Shown piece after piece: positions 14,301-20,772 of a DNA stretch of 64,000 nt (positions are counted from its first letter, which is position 1; each line of letters opens with the position of its first letter). The stretch comes from Phycisphaerae bacterium (GTDB lineage: Bacteria > Planctomycetota > Phycisphaerae > Phycisphaerales > UBA1924). Position numbers and translations under genes: made by a program. The notes beneath the pieces are model-generated. The model had not been told where the DNA came from. It ran no database searches and worked only from the letters and a program-made list of their open reading frames with translations. Location of the stretch: assembly GCA_016794925.1 (NCBI GenBank), contig JAEUIW010000005.1, positions 124,001 through 188,000 of the forward strand, read 5' to 3'.

Positions 14301-15449
14301 TCACGCCGCGACGATGGCGTCCGGCTCGGCCGAAGCTCTGGGGCTCGCGGAAATGCCCAACTGCACGAGCGGGCCGTGCGGCCGCTTGGCCTCCTCCGCC
14401 AGCGACCGGGCCGCGGCGGCATCGGCGTAGCCGGGGGAGAGAATGGCCCGGATTGTGCCCCACATCCCGCGCAGGGATCCGAACGTGTAATCGTTGGCGC
14501 TCGTCTCGTACCCGCAGTGGACCATGCACTGCTGGCACGCCGTGTTCCCGCTCGCCCGGCCGTAGCGGGACCACGCGGTCGACTCGATGAGCTCACGAAA
14601 GGTGTCCGCGTACCCGTCCTGCAGCAGGTAGCAGGGCTTCTGCCATCCGAAGATGTTGTACGTGGGCATGCCCCAGGGCGTGCATTCGAACTCGCGCCTG
14701 CCCATCAGGAATTCCAGGAAGAGCGGCGATTGGTTGAACCGCCAGTTCCGCTTGCGGTTCGACAGGAGCGTGCGAAAGAAATCCGTCGTCTTCTTCCGCT
14801 CCTGCATGAACGACCGTTGATCCGGCGCTTTCGGGTACGCATACCCGGGGCTGACCATCATGCCCTCGACTCCGAGCGCCATCATCTCATCGAAGAACGC
14901 GCGCACCGAGTTGGGGTCCGCTCCGTCGAAGAGCGTGGTGTTCGTCGTCACGCGGAAGCCCATCTTCACCGCCAGGCGGATCCCCTCGAGCGCGGTCTGA
15001 AATGTACCCTCGCGACAAACTGCGAAGTCGTGGTGCTCCTCCTGCCCGTCCATATGGACCGAGAAGGTCAGGTACTTGCTCGGCGTGAACAGCCCTTCCT
15101 CCAGTTTCTGCTTCAGGAGCAGCGCGTTGGTGCACAGATAGATGTACTTCTTGCGCGCGATCAGGCCCTCGACGATCGACCTGATCTGCGGGTGGAGGAG
15201 CGGCTCGCCGCCGGGGATGGAGACCATCGGAGCCCCGCACTCCTCCGCCGCTGCCCAGCATTGCTCGGGGGTCAATTGCCGCTTGAGGATGTGCGCCGGA
15301 TATTGGATCTTGCCGCACCCGGCGCAGGCCAGGTTGCACCGGAAAAGCGGTTCGAGCATCAGCACCAGCGGGTAGTGCCGGTTACCCTTGAGCTTCTGGC
15401 CGATGACGTACGTCGCCACGGTCCACATCTGGCTCAGCGGAACACCCAT
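14301..15449 (-). CDS. hpnH: adenosyl-hopene transferase HpnH (radical SAM)
   Basis: 382 residues. The frame is open far upstream, but the conserved HpnH start MGVPLSQMWTVATYVIGQKL fixes ATG 15449, which has GGAG just upstream. The radical SAM cluster motif CNLACAGCGKIQYP (CX3CX2C) is at about residues 38-45, with PGGEPLLHP shortly after. Then come LCTNALLL, FSVHMDGQEEHHD and a Cys-rich tail (CTPWGMPTYNIF, CQQCMVHCGYE). Family knowledge: HpnH adds a 5'-deoxyadenosyl radical from SAM to diploptene, giving adenosylhopane, the first step to C35 bacteriohopanepolyols. No squalene-hopene cyclase or hpnG is visible nearby, so the gene stands apart from the usual hopanoid cluster. Divergent from a glycosyltransferase gene 111 bp away. 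Confidence 0.93.
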   Translation of the reverse strand: MGVPLSQMWTVATYVIGQKLKGNRHYPLVLMLEPLFRCNLACAGCGKIQYPAHILKRQLTPEQCWAAAEECGAPMVSIPGGEPLLHPQIRSIVEGLIARKKYIYLCTNALLLKQKLEEGLFTPSKYLTFSVHMDGQEEHHDFAVCREGTFQTALEGIRLAVKMGFRVTTNTTLFDGADPNSVRAFFDEMMALGVEGMMVSPGYAYPKAPDQRSFMQERKKTTDFFRTLLSNRKRNWRFNQSPLFLEFLMGRREFECTPWGMPTYNIFGWQKPCYLLQDGYADTFRELIESTAWSRYGRASGNTACQQCMVHCGYETSANDYTFGSLRGMWGTIRAILSPGYADAAAARSLAEEAKRPHGPLVQLGISASPRASAEPDAIVAA

Positions 15450-15560
15450 GTCGGCTCCAATACGGAGGTCGGGAAAGACGACTATAAGGGTGGCTCCAAC
15501 GCCGGACCAGAACACTGAACTTGCCCCGCGGCGAGACGGAGCGACCTTGAGGAGAACGAC

Positions 15561-17000
15561 ATGCGGCTGATGGCGATGATCCCACCCGGAACGAACGCCC
15601 GGAGCATCTTTTCCGACATGCTGCGTGGCGGCCAGCTCGCCGGGCACGAGGTGCTGTTCGAGGACATCGCGCTGTTCATCGCGCAGATCGAGGCGATCCG
15701 GAAGGGCATGACCGGGCAGGTCGCCCCGACCGATCCCCGGGCCGCGCGTCTCAACGAGCTCCAGACCGGCTACGCGAAGTACCTCGAGTCGCTGGCGAGG
15801 CTCCGGCGCATCGATGCCGTGGTGTGCCTCGGCCTCGACCCGATCATGGCCCTGCCGTGGGGAAAAAGGCCCGACGGCCATGAAGGCAGTTTTCTCGAGG
15901 CGGCAGGAATCCCGGTGGTTCACTTCTGGCTGGACGCGCCCTTCTGGGCGTACGGCGGTCAGGCGCTGGGGATTATGAACCGGGATCGGCTCGCCGGGCC
16001 GGGCCACATTCACGTGATCAACAACGAGGGCAGCGCCGCGGAGATGCGGCGGGTTCTGGGCTTTCAAAGTGTGCTGGTGCAGCCCTATGGGGTTGACGAG
16101 GTCACGTTCCGCCCGTGGACGGAGATGCCCGTGCCGCGCACTCATGAACTGGCCGTCTGCATCGGGGCTGGGGACGAGGCGCCGACAGACACGATGCGCG
16201 CGCAACTCGACAAGGACGTGCCCGACGTCGGTGCGATCCGCTGTGACCAGGTGGAGCGAGCCCGAGCGAAGCTGGCGACGATTCTCACCGAGTCAGGTCG
16301 GGCCGGCGGCGCATCCGTGGAAGGAGCGGAGGGGCTCGCGCGGGCTTGGCTCGACGAACAGGCACGGGACCCGGATCGGGGGATGATGGACAAGTTTGAA
16401 GCCGCGACCCGATCCGCCGCAGTTGCGACAGACGGGATCACGGGGCTTGCGGACGCGATCATCAGTCGGGCGGGATGCGCCTCAGCATGGGCGCAGGCTG
16501 CCGCGCTGGTCCGCAGCGTCGATTCGTGGCAACGTGCGTTCTACACGACGTATCTGTCGCAGCGTTACCGGACCATAACCATCGGGGGTGGCGGTCAGGC
16601 GCTTCAGAAGTCCGGATGGCCGGTTCGTGCCGACATGACCGGATTCATGGGTTACCACGAACTCAGCGCCGCCTACGGAAGGGCCTCGGTCGCGGTGAAC
16701 GTCATGCGATATCAGGATGATGTCGGTGTGAACCCAAAGGTCCTGGAGATCGGCGCATCCGGCGCCGCCGGGATTATGCGTTCCCGGTCAGGCCTGGACG
16801 AGGCCTTCGCGGAGGGTTTCGAATTTGTGTTCTGTCAGACGCCGGGCGAAGCGAGCGAAAAAATCCGTGCGTTGCTCGGGAACGACGCGAAACGCGTGGG
16901 GATGGCGTCGGCGGCTCGTCAGCGCGTGCTGCGCGAGCACACGTGGAAGTCGCGCGCGGGTCAGATGTTCGCGCACGTTGAGAGCCTGATCCGAGGGTAG
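15561..17000 (+). CDS. glycosyltransferase family 1-like (CgeB-like) protein
   Basis: 479 residues from ATG 15561 with a strong Shine-Dalgarno (GAGGAG). The N-terminal half resembles a GT-B acceptor domain (MRLMAMIPPGTNARSIFSDM; CLGLDPIMALPWGKR; VVHFWLDAPFWAYGGQAL). The C-terminal half has the 'glycosyl transferases group 1' pattern common to CgeB/spore-protein-like enzymes: DMTGFMGYHELSAAYGRASV, then VAVNVMRYQDDVGVNPKVLE, EIGASGAAGIM and a terminal helix VLREHTWKSRAGQMFAHVES. These enzymes transfer a sugar from a nucleotide donor; the acceptor is unknown. It shares the upstream region with hpnH, so a role in hopanoid head-group glycosylation is possible but is only inference from position. 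Confidence 0.7.
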   Translation: MRLMAMIPPGTNARSIFSDMLRGGQLAGHEVLFEDIALFIAQIEAIRKGMTGQVAPTDPRAARLNELQTGYAKYLESLARLRRIDAVVCLGLDPIMALPWGKRPDGHEGSFLEAAGIPVVHFWLDAPFWAYGGQALGIMNRDRLAGPGHIHVINNEGSAAEMRRVLGFQSVLVQPYGVDEVTFRPWTEMPVPRTHELAVCIGAGDEAPTDTMRAQLDKDVPDVGAIRCDQVERARAKLATILTESGRAGGASVEGAEGLARAWLDEQARDPDRGMMDKFEAATRSAAVATDGITGLADAIISRAGCASAWAQAAALVRSVDSWQRAFYTTYLSQRYRTITIGGGGQALQKSGWPVRADMTGFMGYHELSAAYGRASVAVNVMRYQDDVGVNPKVLEIGASGAAGIMRSRSGLDEAFAEGFEFVFCQTPGEASEKIRALLGNDAKRVGMASAARQRVLREHTWKSRAGQMFAHVESLIRG

Positions 17001-17051
17001 CGGTGAGCCGCTGAATCGTGCGTGCTACAGTCGCGAAGGCCACGCGAGATC

Positions 17052-17735
17052 ATGAACTGGCGGGCGGTTCCAGAGGCACGGTTGGAATCGAGGACGGAAC
17101 CTGAAGCGATGCCCGAGGCCGAGCGCTCCGATGAACGTCTGCTGGAGGCGTACCGGGAGGGCGAGAGCGGTGCGTTGGCCGAATTGATCAGGCGTTTCCA
17201 CGACGACCTGATGCGGTTCCTGATCCGGCTGATGGGTGATCGGACCTTGGCCGAGGACGTTTTTCAGGAGACGTTCATCCAGGTTCACCTGTCCGCGGAC
17301 AGCTTTGATGCCTCGCGGCGATTCAAGCCATGGCTTTTTACGATTGCGGCGAACAAGGCCCGTGATCAGCTGCGTAAGAGTGCGCGGCGGAGAACCGTTG
17401 ATCTTTCTGCCCCAATCGGGGGAGGAAAGGGCGGTTCCAACTCGGGGGATGGGGACGGCCGAACGTACATCGATCTGATGGAGATCGACGTGCCGGATCC
17501 GTCCGATGGGATCCAGGCGGAGGAACGCGAGCGGATGGTGCAACGAGCGATTGACCAGCTCCCACATCCTTTGAAGGAGATCCTGTTGCTGGCGTACTTC
17601 CAGCGGCTGAGTTATAGCCAGATCGCGGACTCGCTTGAGATCCCGTTGGGGACAGTGAAATCTCGGTTGCACGCCGCGGTGGCCGGATTCGCGAAGCACT
17701 GGCAGGCATTGAACAAAGGGGCGGTCGAACGATGA
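17052..17735 (+). CDS. RNA polymerase ECF-type sigma factor
   Basis: 227 residues from ATG 17052; GTG/ATG alternatives at 17022 and 17109 are possible and no Shine-Dalgarno decides between them. Region 2: ESGALAELIRRFHDDLMRFL, then DRTLAEDVFQETFIQVHLSA and FKPWLFTIAANKARDQLRKS. A Gly/Ser/Asp-rich linker (about 125-150) separates it from region 4: IDQLPHPLKEILLLAYFQRL, SYSQIADSLEIPLGTVKSRL, HAAVAGFAKHW. All the hallmark ECF residues are present, including DVFQETF and GTVKSRLH. The following membrane-protein gene begins within its stop (ATGATG, overlap of four bases), so the pair is a sigma/anti-sigma-like module. Confidence 0.92.
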   Translation: MNWRAVPEARLESRTEPEAMPEAERSDERLLEAYREGESGALAELIRRFHDDLMRFLIRLMGDRTLAEDVFQETFIQVHLSADSFDASRRFKPWLFTIAANKARDQLRKSARRRTVDLSAPIGGGKGGSNSGDGDGRTYIDLMEIDVPDPSDGIQAEERERMVQRAIDQLPHPLKEILLLAYFQRLSYSQIADSLEIPLGTVKSRLHAAVAGFAKHWQALNKGAVER

Positions 17736-19003
17736 TGGATGGGCGGCAACACGATGAGATTCCGGTGGACGGCGAGATGCCGGGCAGCGGCTGGGCCCTT
17801 TCGGAGCGATCCGTTCGCTGCGTGGACGCGCTGGTCGAGGCCGGGTTCGACCCCGGGCGCGTGCCCGTGGAATTCCGTGCCGAATGCCGCAGGCTCGCAT
17901 CCCTGCTGAGAAGTCTGGACGAGGTTCACACGGGTTCGGACGGCTCCGCACTGGTGGACGTCACGCTGGCGCGCGTGCTGCGGTCGGGCGGGGGCGCGGT
18001 GGCTTCGGGGCAGATCGACCTGTCGCCCGCCGACGATGACGCGTTTGAGGCGCTGGTTTCGGCGGGGTTCGATGCGGAGCGCGTCACGAGCCGGATGCGC
18101 GCGCGGGCGCGTCGGCACGCCGGGCTGCTGAGCGTGCTTTCCGTGCCGGTGAGCGGGTCGCCGGACGAACGGGAAACTCTGATTTCGAAGACGCTTGCCT
18201 GCGTGCAGGCGGAGATCGATTCGGGAGATGCGAGACGGCGGGTCTCGTCCGCCGGGGATGCCGCTTCCGTGCGTCGCTGGAGCCTGTCGAACCTGGTTTC
18301 GGTCGCGGCGGTGCTCCTGATCGGTTCGGCGGTCGTCTGGCCCATGATGGCGGCGCAGCGCGAGGTCGGGCGGAGGCTGAGTTGCGAGGCGGGGCTTCTC
18401 GCCGCCGCGAGGGGCTTCGGGGCATACGCGGGCGGGAATCGCGATGCGCTCCCGCAGGCCACGGATTCCGAGGCTGGCCGGGTGTGGTGGCGGGTGGGTT
18501 CGAACCCTGAGGAATCGAATTCCGCGAATCTTTACGTGCTCTTCCGGACCGGCTGCGCCGGACCGACATCGTTGGCGTGTGCGGGGAACGAGTGGGCTCC
18601 GGAGCGATCCGACCCGAACGAGTCGGACTGGAAAGAGCTGGCGCAAGTCTCGTACAGCTTCCAGAATATGTTCGCGCAGGCGCGGCCCAAATGGGGGCAG
18701 GGCGAACGGGTCGCGGTGCTGACGGATCGCTCTCCGGTGGTGTTGCGTGCGGTGCGGAGACAGGTGATCTACCCCTTCGCCAATTCGCCGAATCACGGTG
18801 AGTCCGGGCAGAACGTGCTGTTCAACGACGGATCGGCCGAGTTTCGCCGCACGCCGCTCCTCGATAACGGTGACAACATCTGGCTCCCGCAGTGGTTGGA
18901 GCAACGGATCTACGCGGCGACGGGCTCGGGCCGGGGTTCTGCTGAACCCCTGATCGGCACCGAAGCGCCGGAATCCGCGGACGACGCGTTCATGGCGCCG
19001 TAG
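17732..19003 (+). CDS. membrane protein: anti-sigma-like N-terminus with DUF1559/pseudopilin-like C-terminus
   Basis: 423 residues, start overlapping the sigma gene stop by four bases. The cytoplasmic N-terminal ~185 residues contain two similar segments: DALVEAGFDPGRVPVEFRAE (about 31) and EALVSAGFDAERVTSRMRAR (about 108). They look like an internal duplication of an all-helical anti-sigma-type module. A transmembrane helix follows at about 192-212 (NLVSVAAVLLIGSAVVWPMM). The periplasmic part resembles planctomycete prepilin-like DUF1559 proteins. RRLSCEAGLLAAARGFGAYA followed by GGNRDALPQA mirrors the family 'C.sNLkqiglAl..Ya..n.g..P'. NHGESGQNVLFNDGSAEF mirrors the C-terminal H-X9-DG motif. 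No zinc HxxxCxxC is seen. Function: likely membrane regulator of the adjacent sigma factor; the pilin-like part could be the sensor. Confidence 0.65.
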   Translation: MMDGRQHDEIPVDGEMPGSGWALSERSVRCVDALVEAGFDPGRVPVEFRAECRRLASLLRSLDEVHTGSDGSALVDVTLARVLRSGGGAVASGQIDLSPADDDAFEALVSAGFDAERVTSRMRARARRHAGLLSVLSVPVSGSPDERETLISKTLACVQAEIDSGDARRRVSSAGDAASVRRWSLSNLVSVAAVLLIGSAVVWPMMAAQREVGRRLSCEAGLLAAARGFGAYAGGNRDALPQATDSEAGRVWWRVGSNPEESNSANLYVLFRTGCAGPTSLACAGNEWAPERSDPNESDWKELAQVSYSFQNMFAQARPKWGQGERVAVLTDRSPVVLRAVRRQVIYPFANSPNHGESGQNVLFNDGSAEFRRTPLLDNGDNIWLPQWLEQRIYAATGSGRGSAEPLIGTEAPESADDAFMAP

Positions 19004-19183: not shown

Positions 19184-19486
19184 ATGCCCAAGCACAAGCC
19201 TCACAAGGGGCTGCTCAAGCGGATGCGGGTGACGAAGACCGGCAAGGTCAAGCACAAGAGCGCCGGGAGCAAGCACCTCAAGTCGCACAAATCTCCGAAT
19301 CGCCTGCGTCGGCTTCGCAAGGACAAGTTCCTGTCGAACGCCGAGGCCAAGAGCATGGAGAAACTGCTGTTCCGGCGCCTGCGCGGAAGAAACCAGCCGC
19401 GCACGGCGCTGCGGATCAGCCCCTCGCCCGCGGAGAGCCGCGCGGCGAAGGCGGAAAAAGCCGCCGCCGCGAAAAAGGCTGGCTGA
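19184..19486 (+). CDS. rpmI: 50S ribosomal protein L35
   Basis: 100 residues from ATG 19184 (MPKHKPHKGLLKRMRVTKTG), with AAGG upstream. The L35 core covers residues 1-65 (KVKHKSAGSKHLKSHKSPNR, then LRRLRKDKFLSNAEAKSMEK) and binds 23S rRNA in the large subunit. The protein carries an additional ~35-residue Ala/Lys-rich tail after the core, longer than the usual 64-66 residues. It is followed 94 bp downstream by rplT as expected. infC, which normally precedes rpmI, is absent; the upstream gene is an anti-sigma-like membrane protein. The 180-bp leader (19004-19183) presumably holds the promoter, but I see no clear -35/-10 pair. Confidence 0.95.
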   Translation: MPKHKPHKGLLKRMRVTKTGKVKHKSAGSKHLKSHKSPNRLRRLRKDKFLSNAEAKSMEKLLFRRLRGRNQPRTALRISPSPAESRAAKAEKAAAAKKAG

Positions 19487-19580: not shown

Positions 19581-19955
19581 ATGCCACGCGTGAGAAAAGG
19601 CGCCGCCAAGGCGCAGGCCCGCAAGCGATTGCTGCGCAAGGCCCGGGGCTACTTCGGCACTCGCAGCAAGCACAAGTACCAGGCCAAGAACGCCGTGATG
19701 CGCGCGGGCGTGTACGCGTACCGCGACCGCCGCAACCTGAAGCGCGACATGCGGGCGGTCTGGATCACCCGCATTACCGCCGCGTGCAAGATGCGGGGCA
19801 CACGGTACAGCGTGTTCATGAGCGGGCTGAAAATGGCCGGCATTCTGCTGAACCGCAAGATGCTCAGCGAGGTTGCGATCGCGGACCCTGCGGCCTTTGA
19901 CGAGATCGTCAAAGTCGCTGTCCCGCTGAGCCGCGCGAGCATGAAGGCGGCCTGA
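19581..19955 (+). CDS. rplT: 50S ribosomal protein L20
   Basis: 124 residues, start ATG 19581 with AAGGAG nine bases before it. The sequence is a textbook L20: MPRVRKGAAKAQARKRLLRK, ARGYFGTRSKHKYQAKNAVM, YRDRRNLKRDMRAVWITRIT and MSGLKMAGILLNRKMLSEVA. L20 binds 23S rRNA and is essential for early 50S assembly; in many bacteria it autoregulates its operon. Forms a two-gene operon with rpmI and is followed by a strong intrinsic terminator. Confidence 0.97.
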   Translation: MPRVRKGAAKAQARKRLLRKARGYFGTRSKHKYQAKNAVMRAGVYAYRDRRNLKRDMRAVWITRITAACKMRGTRYSVFMSGLKMAGILLNRKMLSEVAIADPAAFDEIVKVAVPLSRASMKAA

Positions 19956-20082: not shown

Positions 20083-20772
20083 ATGGGGCCGACCGGTTGG
20101 TGGGTGGCGGACTGGTGGCGTGTGAGCCCCGTGATCGTGATCGCATGGATCACGTGGACGATCGTCTCGATCGTTCTGCACGAGCTGGCTCACGGCTGGG
20201 CGGCGATCCGATGCGGCGACCGCACCCCGATCGAGCTCGGGCGGATGACGTGGAACCCGTTGGTTCATATGGGGCCAATGAGCCTGTTGGTCTTCGCGCT
20301 GACGGGGCTCGCCTGGGGGCTGATGCCGGTGAGCCCGAGCCGGTTCCGGGGGCGATACGACCGGGCCTGGGTCGCGCTGGCCGGGCCTGCGATGAACCTG
20401 GGCCTGGCGGCCGTGGCGCTCTCGGCCGGCGTGCTCTGGATCGCCATCGGGGGTGGCTACTGGTTCACCGGGTTTTCCGCTCCGGACCCGCTCCACGCCA
20501 ACACGATTGCGTTTCTTCGCACGGGCGCCGTGCTCAACGTCGCGTTGGCCGTGTTCAACCTGATGCCGGTTCCCCCACTGGACGGCTCGACCGTAGTGGG
20601 CGCGTTCATCCCGGGATATCGGGAGTGGCTCGCATCGGAGCAGGGCCGGATCGTCGTGATCCTGGGGATTGTCGGGTTGTTCTACTTCGGCGCGGATTTC
20701 TTCTTCGCGTTCGCCTCGCGGGCCGTTGACGCGGCGACCGTTTCCATGCGGGCGATCCTGCACGCCTCCTGA
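20083..20772 (+). CDS. site-2 protease family (M50) zinc metalloprotease
   Basis: 229 residues from ATG 20083 (GAGGAG upstream). The integral membrane protein has four to five hydrophobic segments. The zinc site HELAHGWAA (HExxH) lies in the first core helix (about residues 31-35). The second family motif, NLMPVPPLDGS, supplies the third ligand Asp at about residue 167. The 'AGPAMNLGLA' signature of M50/RseP-like peptidases is at about 103-112. There is no PDZ or CBS domain, so it belongs to the short stand-alone group. Such enzymes cleave transmembrane substrates, often anti-sigma factors. Two ECF/anti-sigma modules lie within 10 kb, so a link is conceivable but unproven. Confidence 0.88.
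   Translation: MGPTGWWVADWWRVSPVIVIAWITWTIVSIVLHELAHGWAAIRCGDRTPIELGRMTWNPLVHMGPMSLLVFALTGLAWGLMPVSPSRFRGRYDRAWVALAGPAMNLGLAAVALSAGVLWIAIGGGYWFTGFSAPDPLHANTIAFLRTGAVLNVALAVFNLMPVPPLDGSTVVGAFIPGYREWLASEQGRIVVILGIVGLFYFGADFFFAFASRAVDAATVSMRAILHAS

Follow-up and report, generated by a model that had tools for sequence, protein, structure and literature searches.

A putative pilin-type membrane anti-sigma factor paired with an ECF sigma factor across Phycisphaerae: a probable envelope-stress switch whose periplasmic part is a captured pseudopilin

Among the described systems closest to the locus analyzed here, the sigma-E/RseA/DegS/RseP/DegP system of E. coli likewise combines a co-transcribed ECF sigma factor with a single-pass anti-sigma factor; control of an HtrA-family protease is a likely further parallel, and release within the membrane a possible one. 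It differs from the protein studied here (P0001) in that the periplasmic part of P0001 is a pseudopilin and not the RseA domain, in that P0001 carries two anti-sigma units, and in that no further conserved neighbor, such as an RseB-like gene, is found at this locus. Class I anti-sigma factors (RskA, RsiW, and the zinc-type ASDI) share an N-terminal three-helix domain, a gene position beside an ECF sigma gene, and a membrane helix, whereas P0001 shows a tandem duplication, has a pilin helix and head fused to it, and is without the zinc motif. The DUF1559/N-methyl pseudopilins of Planctomycetota resemble the P0001 family in their alpha-1 helix, the proline at +22 (P22), the mostly acidic +5 position, and the head pattern NH..GQNVL..DG..W..DNIW, but here an anti-sigma domain stands instead of the leader peptide and the cleavage residue is mostly lost.

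In PilS-PilA of Pseudomonas a pilin helix and a regulator also occur within one membrane system, although in that case the pilin is a separate protein read by a kinase, while here the regulator itself is pilin-derived. The sensing domains of RsgI read polysaccharides. RsgI of Clostridium thermocellum has been described as an anti-sigma factor sensing a signal from outside, with a membrane protease bringing about its release, an arrangement that is proposed for P0001 as well, but the sensing domains of RsgI are not of the pilin type. Unusual outer domains are already known from other anti-sigma factors, and the domains fused to class I anti-sigma domains are reported to be strikingly conserved within groups (PMC7406223). 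Planctomycetes are reported to encode very large DUF1559 sets, with 68 in Planctopirus limnophila (PMC10632474). In the searched literature, which does not cover most subscription journals, no description of a pilin-type or pilin-derived anti-sigma factor was found.

The window, meaning the whole stretch of 64,000 nucleotides that was analyzed (G000:C300:124001-188000), belongs to a genome of 3.66 Mb and contains the following features, with residues numbered as in P0001.

17022..17735, + strand: ECF sigma factor P0002 (Sigma70_r2 62 bits, Sigma70_r4_2 50.6 bits; its gene adjoins the homologue)
17732..19003, + strand: P0001 (423 aa), predicted membrane anti-sigma factor of pilin type
17819..17980, + strand: putative first anti-sigma unit, residues ~30-83 (repeat z 10.8; predicted helices)
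18026..18238, + strand: putative second anti-sigma unit, residues ~99-169 (predicted helices, conservation; NF052375 in class relatives)
18278..18436, + strand: pilin alpha-1 helix with the membrane span, residues 183-235 (register alignments; helix 3-53 of the pilin model)
18437..19000, + strand: periplasmic pseudopilin head, residues 236-423 (prepilin homology up to residue 387; model pLDDT 96.6)
18794..18832, + strand: H-X10-DG motif, H355 to G367 (sequence, conserved columns)
19581..19955, + strand: ribosomal protein L20 gene (Pfam), downstream of the anti-sigma gene
20083..20772, + strand: M50 (site-2-protease type) membrane peptidase (PF02163 57.1 bits, cut-off 27.2)

The reading frame of P0001 lies beside the ECF sigma gene as originally noted, beginning within the sigma stop codon with a 4-base ATGA overlap. 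The GTG start assigned to P0002 may lie farther upstream than the true one, since a length of about 200-210 aa is found for many relatives. This pairing is observed across the class. A sigma gene adjoins the homologue at 62 of the 63 distinct order loci (69 of the 70 loci read, seven of which are repeats of others), and the sole order locus without one stops at a contig end (L030). The same holds for 20/20 further class loci, chosen among good matches, and for all six relatives of the same design beyond the class, which come from nine candidate sites, the other three (L203-L205) being plain prepilins. Around the homologues at the fetched order loci (n = 60), no conserved neighbor was found except the sigma gene.

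The immediate surroundings in the window include a Glyco_trans_1_2 glycosyltransferase (82 bits, 15561-17000, + strand) directly before the sigma gene and a radical SAM protein (14301-16205, - strand, with its coding part toward the low end) that we take to resemble HpnH and whose homologue, in 16/60 loci, precedes the sigma gene in divergent orientation. Downstream of the anti-sigma gene, the frame at 19184-19486 (+ strand) is, by eye, presumably the ribosomal protein L35 gene, and the L20 gene that follows has a homologue nearby in 16/60 fetched loci.

The family is widely distributed. Matches to P0001 occur in 97 of 101 genomes, its own included, which excludes chance, and the A1 order profile, built on 60 of the 63 distinct proteins after removal of two over-long ones (L052, L055) and a short one (L057), finds matches in 397/397 sampled Phycisphaerae genomes, with best E values from ~1e-145 to 1e-10, the weakest of which may be prepilins only. 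The class profile matches 357 of 392 phylum genomes, many through prepilins alone. The A5 search of genome contigs returned 78 loci, nearly all labeled Phycisphaerae or Planctomycetota, and P0001 itself as a query of the same contigs returned no relatives; the class in these genome searches is taken as Phycisphaerae, given the labels of the named-record relatives. Two records labeled Cyanobacteria (L221, CYA N2_1) and Nitrospinaceae (L287) contain this planctomycetal gene or part of it and are probably mis-binned contigs.

The cytoplasmic part of P0001 had been described as a duplicated helical region, and the duplication is real: the alignment of the first unit with the second gives z = 10.8 (200 shuffles), and the predicted structure places three helices in each (25-36, 46-67, and 71-85; then 99-110, 123-134, and 144-169), followed by a single helix at 185-235, so that a three-helix bundle precedes the membrane helix in the model. 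The second unit is the one kept across all families. The first is at least 60 aa long in 34 of 60 aligned relatives, with z > 5 in 23 of those 34, and almost every relative with a long first unit belongs to the window's own family, those of other families having mostly one unit, with L118 and L051 as two-unit cases outside it.

Similarity of this half to known anti-sigma domains is seen at the family level. NCBIfam NF052375 matches 18/20 class relatives at E <= 0.1, with a best value of 1.6e-16 (61 bits, under the 100-bit cut-off), and the class profile gives nine matches at E <= 1 against PDB sequences, including RskA (0.024) and RsiW (0.13), both weak. Outside the class, L202, a protein of the same design, matches zf-HC2 with 27.7 bits, above the cut-off of 22.2, and L198 shows zf-HC2 and T2SSG matches in a single chain, both below their cut-offs. 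P0001 alone gives no significant match against Pfam or NCBIfam, its NF050101 match lying far below the cut-off. From these sequence comparisons, the cytoplasmic part of P0001 appears to be a putative sigma-holding anti-sigma domain.

The second half of the protein is homologous to prepilins over a stretch that includes the membrane helix. Profile alignment (hhalign) against 13 true prepilins gives a probability of 99.9 and E 3.8e-34 over residues 179-387, and the pilin-part profile gives seven matches at E <= 1 among PDB sequences (best 3.3e-4), all seven being pilins or pseudopilins, in a register where residue 2 meets residue 2 wherever the numbering is mature. In this register W183 is +1, N187 is +5, and P204 is +22, as agreed by four lines: the family alignment, hhalign, the PDB sequence matches, and a structural second look, in which residue 183 corresponds to pilin residue 1 (pilin model 1 to 1, 25 to 25).

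Structure prediction, which the original prediction had named as a check of the pilin-like fold, is in agreement. The model of residues 183-423 (pLDDT 96.6, pTM 0.90) has a helix at 3-53, and although Foldseek of both models against the PDB found no match below E 0.001, the second look, restricted to Foldseek's own 121 and 251 chains, placed five of the 251 chains at Z >= 2, the top four being type IV pilins (Z 4.4, 4.4, 4.3, and 3.1). These modest Z values prove nothing alone and are consistent with the sequence evidence. P0001 shares with pseudopilins an alpha-1 helix of about 53 residues, P22, and a homologous head, and DUF1559 (PF07596) is matched at E <= 0.1 by 15/60 order and 10/20 class relatives.

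The fusion of an anti-sigma factor to a pseudopilin, as first proposed, is supported by the prepilin homology and the fold prediction on one side and by the matches to anti-sigma families on the other, but its geometry needs correction: the pilin-like part had been placed after the membrane helix and outside the membrane, whereas the homology starts at residue 183 with the helix included, so that this part does not lie outside alone. Many of the stand-alone prepilins picked up in the phylum search align with the class profile between ~85-95 and ~305, and these starts map the junction. Since the pilin part begins at residue 183 and takes in the membrane helix, the position of the prepilin leader is occupied by the anti-sigma domain. 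Plain prepilins are also seen among the collected loci: L195:1732-3818 holds two overlapping tandem prepilin reading frames whose heads closely resemble the anti-sigma head (model E ~1e-38). A scan of the window found no other FTLIEL-type motifs.

The periplasmic head is strongly conserved. The stretch C...YA..NRDALP and the H-Xn-DG motif, both singled out earlier, are present and conserved, with C218 kept in 54/60 relatives, Y232 and P241 in 60/60, and H355, G359, Q360, G367, and W371 at 90% or more; the spacing here is H-X10-DG, and the curated H-X9-DG model TIGR04294 is weakly matched by just 2/20 class relatives. Class-wide, conservation of at least 90% is observed at eight head positions (W70, C101, D150, H173, G177, Q178, G185, and D199 in pilin-part numbering). 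A diverged copy without the NH..GQNVL..DG head motif occurs at L057:4872-5963 (family f3). The conservation bears on the possibility that a single-pass helix and head were simply taken over as an inert anchor, with the signal read at another place, such as a partner protein or the cytoplasmic units. This would sit well with the sigma gene being the sole conserved neighbor, but so strongly conserved a head is more than an inert anchor would need, which leaves this explanation unlikely.

The promoter signature gives insight into the genes that may be controlled. The motif GAAC-N15..18-CGTN is found upstream of the sigma gene at 38/82 loci, compared with a shuffle mean of 6.2 and a maximum of 13 in 300 shuffles, and with 2/82 on the reverse strand; the stricter YGAAC-N16/17-CGTA is found at 27/82. 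An HtrA-type protease gene (Trypsin_2 + PDZ, L128:1501-3022) has an intergenic sigma motif 70 bases upstream, the HtrA link having emerged from the first 30 motif loci in G104. The strict motif precedes the best HtrA homologue in 10 of 30 genomes (shuffle mean 0.07), a set in which G104 and G123 are not independent, and in 13 of 30 further genomes picked before looking (shuffle mean 0.13, maximum 2 in 500 shuffles; reverse strand 1/30). The signature is shared by sigma and HtrA genes. Upstream of other ECF sigma genes, mainly of the PF07638 group, the strict motif is found at 0/28 loci, these being the 28 of 30 control loci that could be framed.

Within the window's genome, no exact motif stands upstream of the sigma gene, and the HtrA gene has the looser GAAC-N18-CGTA only. 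The genome-wide motif count in G104 shows no excess (122 versus 189 in the reversed control). Most ECF sigma factors read GAAC-like -35 boxes, so another ECF sigma factor could drive HtrA, the control comprising 28 loci. Judged by the shared upstream motif, the regulated genes appear to include an HtrA-type envelope quality-control protease.

Prepilin genes were considered as the main direct regulon and rejected, the motif preceding their FTLIEL codons in 3/80 genomes at 25-55 bases and in 0/80 at 56-86 bases. These counts also weigh against a PilS/PilA-like pilin-level homeostat, in which the anti-sigma factor would read the membrane pseudopilin pool and the sigma factor would directly set prepilin transcription. 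Such a circuit draws on the kept P22 and acidic +5 of the pilin helix, on the 12 T2SSF domain matches in six reading frames and the seven DUF1559 matches of the window genome, and on the description of PilS as reading PilA in the inner membrane (PMC6058289). With the motif so rare before prepilin genes, we hold this explanation to be quite improbable.

Position by position, the pilin features have diverged unequally. P22 is kept in 60/60 order relatives, 19/20 class relatives, and 6/6 relatives outside the class, and the +5 position is acidic in 53/60, 19/20, and 4/6, respectively, and in 18/18 prepilins (counted without L006, L203-L205, and the second L190 gene). G or A at -1 occurs in 18/18 of the same prepilins and in 21/60, 1/20, and 1/6 of the anti-sigma proteins. 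P0001 itself has N at +5 and R at -1, with ~180 residues ahead of the latter in place of a short leader ending in G or A.

On these residues the pilin-type helix is under constraint, and the general loss of the -1 residue makes leader cleavage unlikely as a general mechanism and cutting by prepilin peptidase unlikely as a route of release. Prepilin peptidase acts at the cytoplasmic face, and the account in which it would cut before residue 183, free the anti-sigma/sigma pair, and make the pilin machinery the switch can draw on G at -1 in 19/60 order relatives, often as R-G-F/W/V, and on one A24-like match, below its cut-off, in the window genome, but it is highly improbable given the -1 counts, the R of P0001, and the fact that a released anti-sigma factor would keep holding sigma unless degraded.

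Taken together, the locus is probably a sigma-E/RseA-like envelope-stress switch, built on a class I-type anti-sigma factor whose periplasmic part is a captured pseudopilin. The design would have arisen when an anti-sigma domain took over the position of a pseudopilin leader peptide. We infer that the cytoplasmic part, with two tandem units here and one in most other families, binds and sequesters the co-transcribed ECF sigma factor, while the pilin alpha-1 helix would cross the inner membrane and hold the DUF1559-like head in the periplasm. The signal would be picked up in or near this head, a disturbed envelope would release the hold on the sigma factor, and the freed sigma factor would drive transcription of its own operon and of the HtrA-type periplasmic protease. 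Release would probably proceed through cutting of the membrane segment. M50-type membrane peptidases cut anti-sigma factors inside the membrane, and the M50 gene 1.1 kb downstream of the P0001 gene, after the L35-like and L20 genes, encodes a possible release protease; an M50 homologue lies inside the fetched stretch at just 5/60 loci.

General envelope damage is the safest reading of the signal. As the -1 residue is mostly lost and the acidic +5 mostly kept, contact with membrane pseudopilins is possible, and a more specific version, which we put forward tentatively and regard as somewhat doubtful, would make the pseudopilin a transmembrane stress receptor: its helix, with an acidic +5 in most relatives, would lie among or against the inner-membrane pseudopilins, and a jam or misfolding of the large planctomycetal pseudopilin/type II secretion system would act through the class-wide core sigma factor on HtrA. 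The acidic residue at +5 could merely be a helix cap.

The presence of order-profile matches in every sampled genome suggests that the family acts as a core regulator in this little-studied class, and it comes with HtrA as a candidate target and with a promoter signature that is likewise a candidate. A regulator derived from the DUF1559 fold provides a handle on how the planctomycetal DUF1559 system is watched, and the design of P0001 points to a route to a transmembrane sensor in which a regulatory domain is put where a prepilin would have its leader.
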